A DNA stretch of 44,953 nucleotides from Acidimicrobiia bacterium (lineage in GTDB: Bacteria > Actinomycetota > Acidimicrobiia > Spongiisociales > JAHEDJ01): the NCBI GenBank assembly GCA_035471805.1, contig DATIPS010000027.1, forward strand, positions 1 through 44,953. Reading direction: 5' to 3'. Shown here piece by piece: positions 7,036-30,455 of the stretch. Within the stretch, counting starts at the first letter, position 1; every line of letters starts with the position of its first letter. The notes under the pieces are model-generated. The model was not told the origin of the DNA, ran no database searches, and was given only the letters and a program-made list of their open reading frames with translations. A program made the translations under genes and the position numbers.

Positions 7036-7067
7036 TCGTCTTACGCGCGATCGGGCGCGTAAGACGA
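7036..7067. terminator. Perfect 13-bp hairpin, U-tract only on the minus side
   Basis: Arms at 7036-7048 and 7055-7067 pair without mismatch around a 6-base loop. Forward transcripts would have AAAUCC after the stem; reverse transcripts would have UUUUG, yet no minus-strand gene lies to the right. It most likely ends the GT2-DUF5719 transcript without a U-tract, but an operator or RNA element cannot be excluded. Confidence 0.55.
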
Positions 7068-7108: not shown

Positions 7109-7333
7109 ATGATTGGATCGTGTGCTCGATGTGGAACCGCCGCAGCTTCGATAATGTCCTACAACTACGGCGAACGTGCCATATGGCTGGACGACATCCG
7201 CGAGGGTGTGCCGCCCGGTGCCGGCTATCTCATGTGCGGTCAGCACTCAGATCGGATGACTCCGCCGCTCGGTTGGACGCTGACCGACCGTCGCACTGCC
7301 GCTCGGCTGTTTGCTCCGCTAGAGGTCGCCTGA
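7109..7333 (+). CDS. DUF3499 family small zinc-binding protein
   Basis: 74 aa with the family layout: CARCG at the N-terminus, an AxxSIMSYNYGERAIWL segment, then GYLMCGQHSDRMTPPLGW, giving two Cys and a Cys-xx-His that could bind zinc. DUF3499 genes lie just upstream of manB in many actinobacteria (Rv3258c in M. tuberculosis, from memory); function unknown. The ATG at 7109 was chosen because the conserved CxxC starts five residues in and a TANNNT box lies 7 bp upstream. Here manB is 4 kb further on, separated by the genes described next. Confidence 0.75.
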   Translation: MIGSCARCGTAAASIMSYNYGERAIWLDDIREGVPPGAGYLMCGQHSDRMTPPLGWTLTDRRTAARLFAPLEVA

Positions 7334-14348: not shown

Positions 14349-14966
14349 ATGATCTGCCTGGGATGCCGGAGTTGGAGCAAAGACGCCGTGTGCGAGAGTT
14401 GCACCCGCCGCTCGGCCCGAGGCGGCACGCAGCGTCTTCCCTGTGGCCTGCTGGTTCGTTCGGCTTTCGTTCACGACGGTGCACCACGCGACCTCGTTCA
14501 CAGGCTCAAGTTCGAGGGCCTGATTCCCGCGGCGCGCTGGCTCGCCCAGCACATGGCGCCGCTGCTCGACGGTCTTCCGGGTGTGCTGGTCCCGGTGCCG
14601 AGGACGCCGGTTCGGCGGCTCCGCTTCGGAGTCGACGCAGCCCTCGCCCTTGCAGAGGCGTTGGGCAGTGCAACCGGCCGGCCGGTCCGGAAGTGGTTGC
14701 GTGCGCCGGTTTGGGCACCCGGCCACACGGCCAGGAAGTCCACTCGCAGACGGTCGCCGTTCTTCTTCAGCAGGGCGGCAATCGGGCCGATACTTCTGAT
14801 TGACGACGTGATCACCACGGGGTCGACTCTGCAGGCGGCAGCGACGCAGTTGAACGGACTGGCCGTGGGTGCGGCAACCGCCACCCGCACCGTAAAAGTG
14901 ACTAGTCTCTTGGGTGAGGAGATTTCCGGGCCGTTGTATCAGTCGGAACTCCCAGATCGGAGGTAG
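14349..14966 (+). CDS. comF: ComF family phosphoribosyltransferase-like protein
   Basis: 205 aa. MICLGCRSW...VCESCTRR at the N-terminus is the CxxC...CxxC zinc finger of ComF proteins; the C-terminal half is a type I phosphoribosyltransferase fold with the PRPP loop ILLIDDVITTGSTLQ. ComF proteins take part in DNA uptake in competent bacteria, but the family is widespread in non-competent actinobacteria, where the role is unclear. The finger starts at residue 3 from ATG 14349, so this start is preferred over one 36 bases upstream. A comF gene ahead of hpf and secA matches Rv3242c-Rv3241c-Rv3240c of M. tuberculosis as I recall it. Confidence 0.85.
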   Translation: MICLGCRSWSKDAVCESCTRRSARGGTQRLPCGLLVRSAFVHDGAPRDLVHRLKFEGLIPAARWLAQHMAPLLDGLPGVLVPVPRTPVRRLRFGVDAALALAEALGSATGRPVRKWLRAPVWAPGHTARKSTRRRSPFFFSRAAIGPILLIDDVITTGSTLQAAATQLNGLAVGAATATRTVKVTSLLGEEISGPLYQSELPDRR

Positions 14967-14969
14967 AGC

Positions 14970-15515
14970 GTGGAAGTTCGAGTCCGCGGTAGAAATACCA
15001 CTGTGGACGAGCGACTTCGTGAGATGGCCGAGAGCAAGGTCGCTCACGCGGGTCGCTTTTTCGATGGTCTACTCGACGCCGACGTCGAGTTCACCGAAGC
15101 GCAGAACCCGCGGGTCGCCGAAGGGCGGTTCAAGGCGGAAATCACCAGCAGGGCGGCCGGCCAGATAATGCGGGTCGAATCCTCCGCGGAGACCGCTGAG
15201 GCTGCTCTCGACCTGGCCATCGACAAGATGGAGAAGCGACTGAGGCGCCTGAAAGAGAGGCTCATCGAGCGGTCCCGCAAGGGGCGCAGAGATGTCGAGG
15301 CCGGATTCGCGGCGTTGGACGACTCCGATGAGGGCGGCCCCGAGATCGTTCGCGTCAAGCAGTTCGTCATGAAACCCATGACGCCGGAGGAGGCAGCACT
15401 CCAGATGGACTTGCTCGGCCACAGTTTCTTCTTCTTCCAGAACGCCGAGAGCGACATGCCCAGCGTGCTCTATCGTCGGCGCGACGGTGCACTTGGATTG
15501 ATCGAGCCGGCATGA
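14970..15515 (+). CDS. hpf: Ribosome hibernation promoting factor, long form
   Basis: 181 aa from a GTG with a strong SD (GGAGG, 14959-14963). Residues 1 to about 100 are the S30AE domain (MEVRVRGRNTTVDERLREMAESKV...) that sits in the decoding centre and mRNA channel. A charged linker leads to the C-terminal dimerisation domain (VRVKQFVMKPMTPEEAALQ, then GHSFFFFQN, VLYRRRDGALGLIEP), which joins two 70S ribosomes into a 100S dimer. The length and both domains mark the long HPF. It overlaps the regulator gene behind it by 4 bp, so the two are co-translated. Confidence 0.95.
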   Translation: MEVRVRGRNTTVDERLREMAESKVAHAGRFFDGLLDADVEFTEAQNPRVAEGRFKAEITSRAAGQIMRVESSAETAEAALDLAIDKMEKRLRRLKERLIERSRKGRRDVEAGFAALDDSDEGGPEIVRVKQFVMKPMTPEEAALQMDLLGHSFFFFQNAESDMPSVLYRRRDGALGLIEPA

Positions 15516-19449: not shown

Positions 19450-22083
<2,634 letters not shown>

Positions 22084-24196: not shown

Positions 24197-25080
24197 GCAG
24201 GATCGCCTACCTTCTCCGCGAGGCCCTCGTCAACATGGGCCGCAACGCGCTGGTGGTCGTCGGTGCCATCCTGGCTGTGTTCGTTTCGTTGACGCTCGCC
24301 TTCAGTGCGCTGGTTCTCAACGAGCTCGTCAAGGCCAACACGCTGCAATGGCAAGACGGCGTGCACGTGATCGTCTGGTTGAAAGATGAGGTCCGCGATG
24401 GAGTGACCTTCGAGGCCCAGATGGGCTTGCTCGACGAGGTCAACGGATGGGAAGAAGTCGACACTGCCAGCTTCGTCGGCAAGGCCGAGGCATATCAGGA
24501 GTTCCAGGAGATGTTTGCCAGCAATCCTGCGATGCTGGAAAACGTCAATCCTGCGATCTTGCCCGCCTCCATTCGCATCAAACTCAACAACATCGAGGAG
24601 TACCGGGGTGTTCAGCTGCGTCTTATCGACCAGCCCGTGGTCAAGGAAGTCACTTCTCCGGGTGAGAGCATCGAACAACTCGCCGATTTGAGCAACGTCC
24701 TCAACATGATCGGCGTCGTCCTGGCGATCGTTCAGGGTGCGTCGGCGGTCGTTCTGATTTCCAATACCATCCGCATGGCCATCTATGCGCGCCGTGAGGA
24801 GATCGGCATCATGAAACTCGTCGGTGCGTCGAACTGGTTCATAAGGGTCCCGTTTGTCCTCGAAGGCATGTTGCAGGGTTTTGTCGGTGCGTTGTTCGCG
24901 GTTGTCATGGTTTTCTTTGCCAGAACGCGTCTGGAGGGAATCGATGACACGATCGGGCTTTTCGACTTCCAGGTCGCCGACTCGTTCTTCTGGCGGTGGA
25001 CCATACTCTTCCTGCTGTTCGGTGCTCTGGCCGGTTTTCTCGGTTCGGCCCTGGGCGTTCGCAGGTACCTGAAGGAATGA
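24193..25080 (+). CDS. ftsX: Cell-division protein FtsX
   Basis: 295 aa from a GTG overlapping ftsE. Layout: cytoplasmic N-terminus, first helix ([24 protein letters not shown]), an extracytoplasmic domain of about 120 aa, then three helices, including [22 protein letters not shown] and the last ([21 protein letters not shown]). That is the FtsX fold. Its outer domain contacts a peptidoglycan hydrolase or its activator and passes on the ATPase signal from FtsE. The gene two bases downstream encodes such a candidate partner. Confidence 0.95.
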
Positions 25081-25084
25081 TGTG

Positions 25085-26275
25085 ATGCGGCGATGGATGG
25101 TCCCCGTTGCGATGCTCCTGCTTCTTGCCCTCAGCGTGCCGGTCGGCGCTCAGTCGGACGAGGCGAGGTTGAGCGACGTCGAGCAGGAAATCGATGCTCT
25201 GAACCAGCGGATCAAGGCACAGAAGGAGATCAAGGACCAGCGGGCTGCCGCGGTTGCGGCTGTGGCCGGCCGGCTCGCAGAACTCCAGGCCCAGATCACA
25301 GAGGTGCAGGGGCGGGTCGACTCGAAGGAACTCGACATCGCCAATCAGGAATCTGAGCTGGTCGATCTCGAGACGTCGCTCTCGAGCTTGGAGGCGCAGA
25401 TCGCCAGGACGCAGCTGGAGGTTCGCCAGACCAAGGAAACCGTACAGGAGCGCGCGGTCGATCTGTACATGTCTCGCTCCCTGAACGTCGGCGGCGTGCT
25501 GCTGGCGGTGAACGAGATGGCAGACGTGAGCGTTGGCCTGGAGTACGCCGGTCAAGTGATCGAGGATTCGGAGGCGCTGATTCGTCGCCTCGAAGTTCTC
25601 GAACACCAGGAAGAACTCCAGCAGGAACAGGTTGAGGCGAACAAACGACGAACCGAGGAGATTCTCGCCGCCCTGGAGGTTGAGCGGGAGGGCCTCGTAG
25701 CAGACCGCACCCTTCTGGAGGAGAAAGAGGCAGAGGTAGCCGCCGAACTGGAAGCGGTGAAGGATCTGCTGGCGGAAGTCCAGTCCGACATCCGTGAGGT
25801 CGAAGGCGAGCTGACCGCCCTCGAACGAGAACAGGAGAAGATCGAAGCTGCGATCCGGGCTGCTCAATCGGCCGGCGGAGAGAAGCTCGGCTCCTTGCGC
25901 TGGCCGGTTGCCGGCTCCGTGTCTTCGCCGTTCGGCTTCCGGGTTCATCCCATCTCCGGCGTTCGCAAGCTCCACACCGGCATCGACATGTCGGCAGGCT
26001 CGGGCGTGAAGATCGTTGCCGCAGGAAACGGCGTCGTGATCCTGGCGAGCTGGTACGGGGGATACGGCAACGCGGTGGTCATCGATCACGGAGCGGGACT
26101 GTCCACCCTGTACGCCCATCAGAGCAAGCTGGCAGTCAGCGTCGGTCAGTCGGTGTCGGACGGCGAGGTGATCGGCTACGTCGGCTCGACCGGATATTCG
26201 ACCGGTCCGCACCTCCACTTCGAGACTCGCGAGTTTGGAACTCCGGTCGACCCGATGCCTTTCCTCAACGGTTGA
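25085..26275 (+). CDS. Secreted coiled-coil M23 (LytM) endopeptidase, likely FtsEX partner
   Basis: 396 aa. A signal peptide of about 22 residues ending near VGAQS is followed by long coiled coil to about residue 265 and a C-terminal LytM domain. The domain keeps the zinc-site pattern: HTGIDM, a tyrosine-alanine-His segment LYAHQSKL, and HLHFE. It should therefore cut peptide bridges itself. The coiled coil resembles EnvC and PcsB, which bind FtsX; E. coli EnvC has lost its metal site, while this one looks intact. Directly behind ftsX and overlapping smpB by one base, it is probably the hydrolase that FtsEX controls. ATG 25085 is preferred over GTG 25082. Confidence 0.88.
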   Translation: MRRWMVPVAMLLLLALSVPVGAQSDEARLSDVEQEIDALNQRIKAQKEIKDQRAAAVAAVAGRLAELQAQITEVQGRVDSKELDIANQESELVDLETSLSSLEAQIARTQLEVRQTKETVQERAVDLYMSRSLNVGGVLLAVNEMADVSVGLEYAGQVIEDSEALIRRLEVLEHQEELQQEQVEANKRRTEEILAALEVEREGLVADRTLLEEKEAEVAAELEAVKDLLAEVQSDIREVEGELTALEREQEKIEAAIRAAQSAGGEKLGSLRWPVAGSVSSPFGFRVHPISGVRKLHTGIDMSAGSGVKIVAAGNGVVILASWYGGYGNAVVIDHGAGLSTLYAHQSKLAVSVGQSVSDGEVIGYVGSTGYSTGPHLHFETREFGTPVDPMPFLNG

Positions 26276-26727
26276 TGAAGGTAGTCACCACCAACCGGCG
26301 GGCTCGTCATGATCACGAGATCCTCGAGACCTACGAGGCGGGGATTGTTCTGGTCGGTAGCGAGGTCAAGAGCCTTCGGGACGGGCAGGTAAACCTCAAG
26401 GACTCCTATGCGTCCATCCGCGCCGGTGAACTCTGGCTGATCGGATGTCATATCGCGCCGTACGCATTCTCCCGCCTGGGCGGGCACGAACCTGAGCGCG
26501 ATCGGAAACTCCTCCTCCATAGACGCGAGATCGATCGGATCGGGTCCAAGCTCGCCGAAAAGGGATTGACTCTGATCCCACTGCGCATCTACTTCAAGGA
26601 AGGCACAGCGAAGATCGAACTCGGGCTCGGAAGAGGCAAGCGCACCTACGACAAGCGCCAGTCTCTCAAGGCAAAAGAGCAAAAGCGCGAGATGGATAGG
26701 GCGATGCGCCGCAAGGGTAGGCAGTAG
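26275..26727 (+). CDS. smpB: SsrA-binding protein SmpB
   Basis: 150 aa. Binds tmRNA and brings it to stalled ribosomes. Typical segments: TTNRRARHDHEILETYEAGIVLVGSEVKSLR (in parts), NLKDSYASI, HIAPY and the basic C-terminal tail KRTYDKRQSLKAKEQKREMDRAM that probes the empty mRNA channel. Start ATG 26275 shares a base with the TGA of the peptidase gene. tmRNA itself is encoded 570 bp downstream on the same strand, beyond a small opposite-strand gene. Confidence 0.96.
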   Translation: MKVVTTNRRARHDHEILETYEAGIVLVGSEVKSLRDGQVNLKDSYASIRAGELWLIGCHIAPYAFSRLGGHEPERDRKLLLHRREIDRIGSKLAEKGLTLIPLRIYFKEGTAKIELGLGRGKRTYDKRQSLKAKEQKREMDRAMRRKGRQ

Positions 26728-27299: not shown

Positions 27300-27657
27300 G
27301 GGGGTGAAACGGTTTCGACGTTGAATGTTGAAGCGCCGGAAGCGAGCCGAGGTCCCCGGAGTCCTCGTTAAAGAGCCGGGAAACACCAATAGGTGCCGAA
27401 GATAACTTCGCCCTGGCTGCGTAACTAAACGCAGCTCGTCTGCCCGGAGGGTTCCTGCCCCGCCGGATCCAGGCGTCGCAATGCAGGATGCTCCCCGAGG
27501 GATTCCGGGACTGAGGGGCTAAGACCAACTCTGGATAGGGCAGCGGGAAACTAGCCATCAGAGTCCCGCCGTTCCGAAGGCTTGCTGAAGGCTGCGCTCG
27601 GAGATGCCGGCGCCGAAGATTCAGCGGACCGGGGTTCAACTCCCCGCACCTCCACCA
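27300..27657 (+). ncRNA. ssrA: tmRNA (SsrA)
   Basis: 358 nt. The 5' end GGGGGTGAAACGGTTTCGAC is the standard tmRNA opening; the 3' end GTTCAACTCCCCGCACCTCC is followed by ACCA. Bases 27300-27306 pair with 27647-27653 to form the acceptor stem (one G-U pair), and GGTTCAA is the T-loop. The tag frame starts with GCC at 27395 and encodes AEDNFALAA before TAA (27422-27424), with a second TAA nearby in another frame. The LAA end is the degradation signal read by ClpXP. The CCA is encoded, unlike most tRNAs in this window. Confidence 0.96.
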
Positions 27658-28101: not shown

Positions 28102-28872
28102 CTATCGCGGATTCGCCCGCCAGTCCTCGATCGTGGCTGCGATGGTGGCCAGAGAGGTATCGATAAGGGTGCCTGAATCGCCCTCTGCGCGTTGGATCGG
28201 CTCGTGGAACCTGATCCGCACGCTTGTTCCGAAAGGAACCGGGAACATCTTGTTGCTCAGCAGCTTCCAGGAACCATCTATGGCAGTCGGTACTACCGGC
28301 AGTTTCGAGGCAGCTTCGAGCAGGACGGCCGTTCCGGCCTTCCTGAACTCCTGCAGGTTGCCGTCTCTGGATCGCGTTCCTTCCGGAAAGATGACGGCCG
28401 ACACGTCACGTTCCTGGCAGGTTGCACCGAACTCCGCGATGGCGCGCACCGCCCCGACTCGATTCCCGCGGTCGATCAGAACGTTGCCGCCGTGTTTCAG
28501 ATTGAATGAGATGAGCGGAATCCAGTTGGCCAGTTCCTTCTTCGCAACGTACTTCGGGTAGTTCGAGAAGAGGATCCCGCCGAAGATCGGAACGTCGAAC
28601 AGGCTCTGATGGTTCGAGAGGAAGACGAATCCCTTCCCGGCGACGACAGCGGGGTGGCGCTCGATGGTCAGCCGGACTCCTGATATGCGGAAGGTCCAGA
28701 TCAGTGCCCGCTGGGCGGCCCCGACCGCGATCTCCATCGGTCGAAGGCCGAACAGGCGTGCGACACGGGCACCTACGTCGCCCAGAACCAGGGTGGTGCC
28801 GAAGGCGATCACCATCGGGATTGTCGTGACCCAGTCAACGATCTTGAGCCACCAGGGCCTCGGCGTGTCCAT
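28102..28872 (-). CDS. plsC: 1-acyl-sn-glycerol-3-phosphate acyltransferase
   Basis: 256 aa. Adds the second acyl chain to lysophosphatidic acid in phospholipid synthesis, at the inner membrane. Motif I is SNHQSLFD (NHxxxxD), motif III is IFPEGTRSRDG, and between them lie KYVAKKELANWIP and GNVLIDRGNR. The N-terminal 40 residues hold one hydrophobic helix (TIPMVIAFGTTLVLG). ATG 28872 is chosen; a TTG 18 bases upstream is the alternative, and neither has a clear SD. Substrate preference within the PlsC superfamily cannot be settled by eye. Confidence 0.9.
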   Translation of the reverse strand: MDTPRPWWLKIVDWVTTIPMVIAFGTTLVLGDVGARVARLFGLRPMEIAVGAAQRALIWTFRISGVRLTIERHPAVVAGKGFVFLSNHQSLFDVPIFGGILFSNYPKYVAKKELANWIPLISFNLKHGGNVLIDRGNRVGAVRAIAEFGATCQERDVSAVIFPEGTRSRDGNLQEFRKAGTAVLLEAASKLPVVPTAIDGSWKLLSNKMFPVPFGTSVRIRFHEPIQRAEGDSGTLIDTSLATIAATIEDWRANPR

Positions 28873-29110
28873 GGCATTGATCGTACTCAAGACCGGATAC
28901 CCGCGATTCGCCTGATGGGAAAGGCCGCCGGCTGCGCCGGGGTGGCCACCCGATCAATCGACGTCCGTTCTCCGACCGCCGGAGACGTTCCGATCTCTGC
29001 GCCCGCACCTCCACTCGCGGCGATGACCCGGCCACTCGCGTTTATTCCCCCGCGCGCTTCGGCGAAATGCGATACATTGTTCGAGACCGCTCTCGAAAGG
29101 AGGTGCCGAC
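28873..29110. other. Intergenic region ahead of the small-ORF pair
   Basis: 238 bp without a convincing gene. Its right end holds a TACATT box (29073-29078), a 7-bp inverted repeat and a strong SD for the small ORF at 29111. Confidence 0.5.
29080..29097 (+). promoter_or_regulatory. Inverted repeat between a -10-like box and an SD
   Basis: TTCGAGA (29080-29086) CCGC TCTCGAA (29091-29097) is a perfect 7-bp inverted repeat. It starts just behind TACATT (29073-29078) and its right arm runs into the SD AAAGGAGGT (29096-29104). It could be a repressor operator over the transcription start or an RNA hairpin that affects ribosome access. Confidence 0.5.
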
Positions 29111-29176
29111 ATGATCAAGATCCCGATGACTTCCGGCGCCCCGGCCGGTTCGATGAGCGTCTCTTTCGCTCTCTAG
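29111..29176 (+). CDS. 21-residue peptide with near-perfect SD (possible leader peptide)
   Basis: ATG at 29111 stands 7 bases behind AAAGGAGGT, one of the strongest ribosome-binding sites in the window. The peptide begins MIKIPMTSGAP and ends SVSFAL before TAG. It has no run of a single amino acid, so classical amino-acid attenuation is not indicated. A 6-bp GC hairpin follows at 29205-29220, then a second SD-led ORF. It may be a real small protein or a leader controlling the ORF behind it. Confidence 0.45.
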   Translation: MIKIPMTSGAPAGSMSVSFAL

Positions 29177-29204
29177 CCGTTCTACGGCCCCGAGACCCCT
29201 GCAC

Positions 29205-29220
29205 CGGCGCGTTCGCGCCG
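29205..29220 (+). other. Small hairpin between the two short ORFs
   Basis: CGGCGC GTTC GCGCCG: six G-C pairs around a four-base loop, 25 bp ahead of the second ORF and clear of its SD. It could be an attenuator or just a spacer structure. Confidence 0.4.
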
Positions 29221-29244
29221 ACCACCTACCTGGGAAGGAACGTC

Positions 29245-29391
29245 ATGTACCCGTATGACACGCGCGCCGTCCGCGCCATCGCACAAGAACGCTACGCATC
29301 AGCCAAGCCCACCCGTGCGAAGACCGAACGAACGCCGAAACAACGACAGACATGGCCTCGCCGGGTTTCCGCCCGGCCACGGCCGACATGA
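29245..29391 (+). CDS. Small basic protein, 48 aa, unknown
   Basis: ATG 29245 follows GGGAAGGAA at good distance. The product begins MYPYDTRAVRAIAQERYASA and continues with a Lys/Arg/Pro/Thr-rich tail (KQRQTWPRRVSARPRPT in part); strongly basic, no membrane segment. I recognise no family; short N-terminal 'YPYDTR/YPHDTR' peptides occur in some actinobacterial small proteins as far as I recall. The frame is open far upstream, but the SD supports this start. A UUCG-capped hairpin follows the stop directly, marking it as the end of a transcript. Confidence 0.5.
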   Translation: MYPYDTRAVRAIAQERYASAKPTRAKTERTPKQRQTWPRRVSARPRPT

Positions 29392-29396
29392 GACGA

Positions 29397-29420
29397 TCGG
29401 ACCTCCTTCGGGAGGTCCGA
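29397..29420. terminator. Hairpin with UUCG tetraloop between convergent units
   Basis: TCGGACCTCC (29397-29406) pairs perfectly with GGAGGTCCGA (29411-29420) around TTCG closed by C-G, a very stable tetraloop. It sits between the 48-aa ORF (+) and azlD (-), so it can serve both strands. No U-tract. Confidence 0.8.
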
Positions 29421-29427
29421 ATCGCGT

Positions 29428-29763
29428 TCAGAAGACGGCTTCGAGGATCCAGAGAACCGTCATTCCCGAGACGATGGTCCACAGGACGCTCTTTGTGCGC
29501 GCCGCCACGAGGTAGGCGACGACTCCGGCGAACAGGCGCAGATTGCCGAACGAGACGTCGACTGCCCCCCCTTGCCGCAGAAATGCCGGCGCGGCGATCG
29601 CGGCGAGCACCGCCGGTGGGATGAATCGGAGGGCGCGAAGGGCAGGTTCCGGTATCCGGTCGTTCTTCCCCGCCAGGGCGATGAGCGAGAAGCGGAGCGC
29701 GAAAGTGCCGAGTCCGATTACGACGATCAAGAGCCAGATGGCGGTGGGGGAGTAGTCCGTCAT
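29428..29763 (-). CDS. azlD: AzlD family branched-chain amino acid exporter subunit
   Basis: 111 aa with three to four hydrophobic helices: IWLLIVVIGLGTFALRFSLIAL, then IPEPALRALRFIPPAVLAAIAAPAFL and the last two. This is the small partner of AzlC in the LIV-E exporter family. ATG 29763 overlaps the azlC stop. Substrate assignment is by family only. Confidence 0.88.
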   Translation of the reverse strand: MTDYSPTAIWLLIVVIGLGTFALRFSLIALAGKNDRIPEPALRALRFIPPAVLAAIAAPAFLRQGGAVDVSFGNLRLFAGVVAYLVAARTKSVLWTIVSGMTVLWILEAVF

Positions 29764-30455
29764 GCCGGTTGCTTTCTCCCGAGCGCCACGCCTGCCCCGA
29801 TGCCGGCAACCGCAGCAATGGGCAGCCCGAGGTTGTAGGGCAGGCCGGCTGCCGTGACGGCGAGAACTCCTGCCACGACGGCTGCTGCACCGTCTGCCCT
29901 GTCGCGAACGGCCGGGACGAGCAGAGCGAGGAACACCAGCGGAACGGCGAAGTCGAGCGACCACTCCGCCGGAAGGCTCGCGCCGAGAAGCACGCCCAGT
30001 ACCGTGGAGACTTGCCAGACGAGCCAGAGCGTGGTGCCGACACCGACGTAGTAGGCGAGCTTCTGAGAGACATCCCACGATTCATTCCGATAGCGGATGA
30101 TCGAAAACGCGTAGGACTGATCCGTTAGCAGGTAGGCAGCCATCACCCGGCGCGGCAACGGCAACCCCGCCAAGTGGGTTGCGAGTGAGGCGCTGTACAT
30201 GATGAACCGCGCGTTGATGATCAGCGCGGTCGCCACGATGACGATGAAGGTGGCGTTCTGGCCGATCAGTGCTATCGAAGCCAGCTGTGAAGCGCCCGCC
30301 AGGACGATTGTGGAGAATCCCACGGCGTGGAAGATGTCGAGGCCGGCGTCGATCGACGCGATCCCGGCAACCAATCCGAATGGGACGATGCCGAGGATGA
30401 TGGGAGCAAAGTCGCGTACACCCCGCAGGTAGATAGAGCGTGAACCTTCACTCAT
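29760..30455 (-). CDS. azlC: AzlC family branched-chain amino acid permease
   Basis: 231 aa with about six to seven hydrophobic helices. Family features: GVRDFAPIILGIVPFGLVAGIA at the N-terminus, GASQLASIALIG, INARFIMYSASLA and LTDQSYAFSI. With AzlD it forms a two-gene exporter of branched-chain amino acids or their analogues in the cell membrane. The aldo/keto reductase gene upstream is co-directional at 63 bp, with a hairpin in between. Confidence 0.9.
   Translation of the reverse strand: MSEGSRSIYLRGVRDFAPIILGIVPFGLVAGIASIDAGLDIFHAVGFSTIVLAGASQLASIALIGQNATFIVIVATALIINARFIMYSASLATHLAGLPLPRRVMAAYLLTDQSYAFSIIRYRNESWDVSQKLAYYVGVGTTLWLVWQVSTVLGVLLGASLPAEWSLDFAVPLVFLALLVPAVRDRADGAAAVVAGVLAVTAAGLPYNLGLPIAAVAGIGAGVALGRKQPA

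Follow-up and report, generated by a model that had tools for sequence, protein, structure and literature searches.

Introduction

Leaders that sense translation through a uORF are known from actinobacteria, as in the mycobacterial WhiB7 and cysteine attenuator leaders, and in the classical erm and cat leaders a ribosome on the leader ORF opens a helix that hides the downstream Shine-Dalgarno (SD) sequence. In Sinorhizobium meliloti, a uORF starting at nt 31 controls the duf1127-1 gene by uORF-dependent transcription attenuation (Kothe et al. 2025, PMC12218461). Experiments there showed that the RNA of the uORF matters and not its peptide. Pairing is predicted between the SD and C-rich uORF codons, an intrinsic terminator is lacking, and Rho is the factor that the authors propose. 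In Corynebacterium, the uORF of the ilvB-II motif is enriched in branched-chain residues and its target is a biosynthetic gene of known function (PMC10272879).

Here we analyze a small unit in a 44,953-nt window, the whole stretch under study (contig DATIPS010000027.1, assembly GCA_035471805.1), from an uncultured lineage of Acidimicrobiia, where a short SD-led frame (ORF1) stands upstream of a gene for a small basic protein (ORF2). Unlike in the WhiB7 and cysteine attenuator leaders, neither a terminator/antiterminator pair nor a codon run was found in this one, and its target is not a WhiB gene or a cysteine operon. It shares with the ilvB-II motif a conserved uORF-bearing RNA upstream of a gene in one actinobacterial genus, whereas branched-chain residues make up only 4 of the 21 residues of ORF1 (5 of 23 in genome G001). 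The likeness to duf1127-1 (PMC12218461) extends to a uORF placed close to the 5′ end, which begins at nt 31 in S. meliloti and at nt 27 of the transcript predicted for this unit, to an SD that can pair with C-rich uORF codons, to the lack of an intrinsic terminator between uORF and gene, and to a downstream gene encoding a small arginine-rich protein. The two differ in leader length (279 nt there, ~160–187 nt here) and in phylum, and attenuation, which has experimental support in S. meliloti, is a proposal for the unit described here.

Results

An earlier sequence-only reading of the window had picked out 350 bp at 29071–29420 as suggestive of a real regulated transcript lying on one strand opposite to both neighbours, and a sequence check located all of its elements on the + strand at the proposed positions. 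The unit lies between a plsC-like acyltransferase gene (28105–28890, − strand) and azlD (29431–29763, − strand), which is convergent with ORF2 and adjoins azlC (29763–30455, − strand). A DNA search of 40 genomes detected the unit in four of the five genomes of the genus and in none of the 35 others; it was single-copy and occupied the same place between the plsC-like gene and azlD-azlC in these four, which bears out the proposal of a real conserved unit. When the SD and start were searched for together at ≤3 mismatches, they matched in 4 of 138 order genomes, every one of them in the genus. The fifth genus genome (G004), where the unit was not found, is uninformative because it is 56% complete and azlC was absent from it as well. 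azlD itself was found in 76 of 137 order genomes, and among the 30 azlD loci listed, all of which were checked, plsC and the unit accompanied it only at the four genus loci.

The four copies formed two clades, G000 (the genome of the window) with G003 and G001 with G002, and represent effectively two independent lineages because G001 and G002 are very close to each other. Since the unit is kept in four of five genus genomes despite a synonymous difference between clades of ~0.60–0.66 (pS 0.61 for azlD and 0.66 for plsC), its retention goes beyond chance. Conservation in close relatives was the test that the sequence-only reading had set for its two ORFs, and the unit survived it. An accidental assembly of motifs without any gene draws on the shortness of each motif taken by itself; this is extremely improbable given conservation across two clades at near-saturated synonymous divergence, and the exact length of ORF2 and the purifying selection on it refute it for ORF2. 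We conclude that the unit, a small gene restricted to this lineage and headed by a conserved uORF leader, is almost certainly real, as is ORF2.

Searches with Rfam covariance models found no family above the gathering score in the interval of the unit. A covariance model of the leader, run against the 138 order genomes, gave strong matches in four and weak ones (20–31 bits) in 12 others, with one more weak match in G002. Of six weak places taken up, five were inspected; by our reading each of the five falls within a protein-coding frame or at its beginning, and the weak matches were treated as chance. Beyond the genus, the searches described here recovered no relative of either ORF2 or the leader.

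ORF2 (MYPYDTRAVRAIAQERYASAK...; 29245–29391, + strand) encodes a 48-aa basic protein whose tail is rich in Arg, Lys and Pro; the protein as a whole has 10 R, 3 K and 3 acidic residues. It is exactly 48 codons long in all four genomes, and 24 of the 48 residues are invariant, 16 of them within the first 22. The dN/dS ratio was 0.26–0.32 in five of six genome pairs and 0.82 in the closest pair, G001/G002, where it rests on six changes; between clades, dS was 1.2–1.7 and dN/dS 0.27–0.32. The conserved head and the tail evolved at different rates, with between-clade dN/dS of 0.12–0.13 for the first 22 codons and 0.49–0.59 for the faster-evolving tail, and structure prediction placed a helix at residues 6–20 in the head (mean pLDDT 68, pTM 0.32), with a confidence too low to support a fold search. 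ORF2 is by these sequence comparisons a protein gene under clear protein-level selection, as the sequence-only reading had supposed for its 48-residue basic frame.

The same reading had recognized no family for this product, in agreement with searches of Pfam (four members) and NCBIfam, which gave no match at E up to 10; because Pfam returned none at that threshold, ORF2 is not a DUF1127 protein by sequence. The one match to PHROG (E 0.31) was at chance level. Beyond the genus, a tblastn-type search of 59 genomes with ORF2 and a profile search of 296 class genomes and the collected loci yielded weak matches only; these mostly covered the Arg/Pro-rich tail and in no case began at the conserved Met. 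Further genome contigs contained two loci, apparently the G003 and G001 copies, and none was found in viral contigs, phages or plasmids. The frame of ORF2 is open far upstream in G000, giving a 158-aa ATG ORF. We rejected this longer version as not conserved, because in G002 the open frame extends upstream for just 29 codons, and spacer length varies by 19–21 nt from one clade to the other. An RNA- or DNA-binding role is proposed for the 48-aa protein.

Upstream of the unit, the −10 element TACATT (29073–29078) lies within TGCGA-TACATT-GT (29068–29080, + strand), and the alignment retained a TANNNT −10 in all four genomes (TACATT, TACATT, TAGGTT and TATGTT). A simple promoter scan of the interval reported no σ70 consensus match. 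All four genomes keep TATTCCCCCGC upstream of the −10, and a block at 29043–29054 (TATTCCCCCGCG, + strand; approximately −42 to −31 relative to the predicted transcription start) has 11 of 12 bases invariant in a four-genome alignment in which the sequence around it is otherwise diverged. With ≤1 mismatch this block occurred at 27 places in five genomes compared to 20 for a reversed control, and thus no regulon was seen for it; nor was one seen when sought for the UTR.

Further downstream lies a 32-nt invariant block (GACCGCTCTCGAAAGGAGGTGCCGACATGATC, 29085–29116, + strand), which begins 7 nt past the −10 and takes in the predicted start, the 26-nt 5′ UTR, the SD and the first two codons of ORF1. 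Judging from this arrangement, transcription probably starts at ~29085. The sequence-only reading had also noted the palindrome TTCGAGA-CCGC-TCTCGAA (29080–29097, + strand), which overlaps the beginning of the ORF1 SD by two bases. The layout in that reading suggests an operator where a repressor would cover the start, and in favour of it the 7+7 repeat is perfect, is unique in the window (0.33 expected at ≤2 mismatches) and straddles the predicted start, with its left arm there. The left arm was changed in the three other genomes (TTCAAGA in G003, TCTGAGA in G002 and TCTGCGA in G001), which have no perfect repeat, and the right arm alone, inside the 32-nt block, is invariant. A conserved operator was rejected on these grounds; the palindrome is most likely not an operator, and we hold the operator reading to be very improbable.

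Among the exact runs that the window shares with the contigs of both distant relatives, G001 and G002, the 32-nt block ranks eighth in length. Of the seven that exceed it, four lie in tmRNA, one lies over the start of a gene that we take to be hpf-like, and the remaining two (20464–20501 and 24781–24815) appear to be coding. The tmRNA gene (27300–27657; tag AEDNFALAA) is close to smpB (26272–26724). At 14955–15033, the SD and first codons of a gene that is presumably hpf/raiA-like were conserved, in runs of 38 and 31 nt shared with G001 and G002. Elsewhere in the window, an intergenic inverted repeat at 7037–7066 (CGTCTTACGCGC / GCGCGTAAGACG, core CGTCTTAC / GTAAGACG) precedes a small ORF beginning near 7110 (MIGSCARCGTAAASIMSYNYGERAIWLDD), which we assume to resemble an actinobacterial DUF. 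The core and flanks of this repeat, which could be an operator or a terminator, are kept in G001 and G002, with diverging upstream sequence, and were not found in the stretch of G003 examined.

ORF1 (MIKIPMTSGAPAGSMSVSFAL, 29111–29176, + strand) has 21 codons in the window and 23 in the other clade, where it carries a 6-nt in-frame insertion; the stop is kept, as TAG or TGA. Its SD, AAAGGAGGTG (29096–29105, + strand), is a near-perfect 10-base match, invariant in the four genomes, and the SD, start, frame and stop are kept in all four genomes carrying the locus, confirming the near-perfect SD-led 21-codon ORF of the sequence-only reading. A conserved short SD-led ORF thus stands upstream of ORF2 on the same strand in all four, presumably on a shared transcript. 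Retention of SD, frame and stop through an insertion and a TAG/TGA change speaks for translation of ORF1, and we infer that it is translated.

The substitution pattern of ORF1 differed from that of ORF2. Between G000 and G002, changes by codon position were 8/5/4, with dN 0.33 and dS 0.36, and dN/dS between clades was 0.72–0.92. As there is no synonymous-site excess, ORF1 appears to be kept as nucleic acid. The sequence-only reading had named a synonymous-site excess in both ORFs as a check, which ORF1 does not bear out. ORF1 differed at 4.5 of 15.8 synonymous sites and ORF2 at 26.1 of 40.7 (5 of 16 against a rate of 0.64, binomial p = 0.008; ORF1 vs ORF2, Fisher p = 0.029), and synonymous divergence in ORF1 was also much less than in both flanking genes. 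These p-values come from G000–G002; the three other between-clade comparisons gave nearly the same numbers because their history is shared. The ORF1 sequences showed no stretch of codons specifying a single amino acid, and an amino-acid attenuator is not supported.

These data bear on a plain bicistronic operon, in which ORF1 and ORF2 would both encode functional small proteins without any switch, and conservation around the ORF1 start would reflect a strong promoter, UTR and SD. The retained SD, start, frame and stop, and 11 invariant residues in ORF1, are what such an operon predicts. The lack of a third-position excess, the between-clade dN/dS and the unusually conserved synonymous sites of ORF1 are not, and the 32-nt block continues upstream beyond the SD as far as the predicted start; we regard this operon as unlikely. 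Nucleotide-level selection, as judged from the alignments, very probably acts on the leader.

To describe the leader RNA, we propose two helices. P1 (29088–29159, + strand) pairs CGCUCUCGA (29088–29096) with UCGA-U-GAGCG (29150–29159), and its nine pairs are present in all four genomes with none varying. P2 (29102–29140, + strand) pairs GGUGCCG, the 3′ half of the SD (29102–29108), with CGGCGCC (29134–29140) in C-rich ORF1 codons; its seven pairs are present in all four genomes with one U-G to U-A change. In the MFE fold of the isolated leader, all four genomes shared one core, in which CGCUCUCGA pairs with UCGA-N-GAGCG around an inner helix of GGUGCCG and CGGCRCC. Paired ORF1 positions varied less than unpaired ones (one-sided p = 0.012, 0.029, 0.008 and 0.016 for the four reference folds); with the UTR included, the values were 0.067, 0.145, 0.0013 and 0.0037, two of the four folds being non-significant. 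Compensatory change was not found in P1 and P2, none of the 21 consensus pairs having changed on both sides, and the fold energies of the isolated leaders (z = −0.33, −2.01, −0.71 and −1.10) were ordinary for three of four. When the transcript was extended into ORF2, by our reading P1 was in the MFE fold of none of the four genomes and P2 in that of three. Opening of the ORF1 SD cost 7.2–9.2 kcal/mol, a cost reached by 48–98 of 300 shuffles and by 11–187 of 300 synonymous recodings; in these folding models, masking of the ORF1 SD is no stronger than chance. Nucleotide constraint on the leader is therefore better supported than any particular fold, because covariation is lacking, the energies are ordinary, P1 is lost in the longer transcript, and the SD masking is matched by controls.

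The leader might instead be a structured 5′ element or small RNA with ORF1 incidental to it, acting in cis, as a protein-binding site or as a released sRNA, with ORF2 as the downstream gene. Conservation at the nucleotide rather than the protein level, the core common to the four isolated leaders and the lower variability of paired sites all fit such an element. The 10-base SD match at proper spacing, the in-frame indel and the change from one stop to another do not, nor do the lack of an Rfam family in the interval and of covariation, and we consider this explanation quite unlikely.

The spacer between ORF1 and ORF2 (29177–29232, + strand) is C-rich (27 C, 14 G) and forms a candidate Rho-loading stretch. 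It contains a GC hairpin, CGGCGCG/CGCGCCG (29205–29220, + strand), followed by ACCACCTACC without a U-run. A terminator scan between ORF1 and ORF2 found no intrinsic terminator, and an attenuator of that type is not supported. The C-over-G excess of the spacer in the four genomes (0.23, 0.23, 0.17 and 0.13) was reached by 1.1, 0.9, 3.3 and 8.9% of same-length windows, respectively, placing it in the top 1.1% in G000 and making it weaker in G001 (8.9%) and weak for the G001/G002 clade; the C-rich bias extends through ORF2 too. Rho is encoded in four of the five genomes and was not found in G001, which is 87% complete. The C-rich spacer and the presence of Rho are compatible with Rho-type attenuation.

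The ORF2 SD, GGAAGGA (29233–29239, + strand), has its AAGGA kept in all four genomes. We considered coupling at this site as in the erm and cat leaders, where a ribosome on ORF1 would open a helix hiding the ORF2 SD. The C-rich stretch past the ORF1 stop can pair with the ORF2 SD, and at one of these pairs both bases differ between the clades, but in some sequences a pair of this post-stop helix is lost. Opening the ORF2 SD cost 1.2–1.5 kcal/mol in three genomes and 4.0 in G003. Modelling a ribosome on the stop codon of ORF1 shifted the cost by <0.4 kcal/mol in those three and by 1.2 in G003, so that folding tests in the four genomes showed no consistent release of the ORF2 SD by a ribosome on ORF1. 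An SD that is fairly open and not consistently opened by the ribosome speaks against classical translational attenuation, which we consider improbable here.

At the 3′ end of the unit, a 10-bp UUCG hairpin (29397–29420) lies between the convergent ORF2 and azlD. The sequence-only reading took it for a UUCG-capped terminator. The hairpin is present and is kept in G003 and in G001 (where both bases of one C-G pair have changed, giving U-A, and the loop is UCCG), but no U-run adjoins it on either strand, and the terminator scan reported no terminator. In G002 (locus L006, C23) the hairpin is cleanly deleted, and the ORF2 and azlD stops stand a few bases apart.

Discussion

Our best reading, held tentatively and at somewhat less than even confidence, is that the unit is a translation-sensing uORF leader controlling a lineage-specific basic protein, perhaps by Rho-type attenuation. 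A promoter with a TANNNT −10 would start the mRNA at ~29085, and its first 26 nt together with ORF1 would make up a leader that selection keeps at the level of nucleotide sequence and that comprises a near-perfect SD, a uORF of 21–23 codons and probably RNA pairing around the uORF. Translation of ORF1 would set the output of the 48-aa basic ORF2 protein. With good ribosome loading on ORF1, C-rich RNA in ORF1 and the spacer may become exposed to Rho, and transcription would stop before ORF2; with slow or blocked initiation on ORF1, the leader would fold or be covered and ORF2 would be transcribed. Both Rho termination and this direction of control are inferred. We give control of ORF2 by ORF1 an even chance, and place the Rho version of it on the unlikely side.

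A more far-reaching reading, which we offer as speculative and fairly unlikely, is that this is a ribosome-availability leader invented independently in an uncultured actinobacterial lineage, where a uORF kept as RNA would drive a novel protein family, small, basic and probably RNA-binding, convergent with the proteobacterial pairing of a uORF with DUF1127.

Genes as small as this one easily escape annotation, and the eighth-longest run that the 45-kb window shares with distant relatives puts the leader in the company of tmRNA. For a uORF as short as ORF1, synonymous-site rates can separate an RNA-level role from a peptide-level one. If the control proposed here is true, a uORF leader joined to a small arginine-rich protein would occur in a second phylum, which would suggest that the coupling of such proteins to translation status is recurrent.
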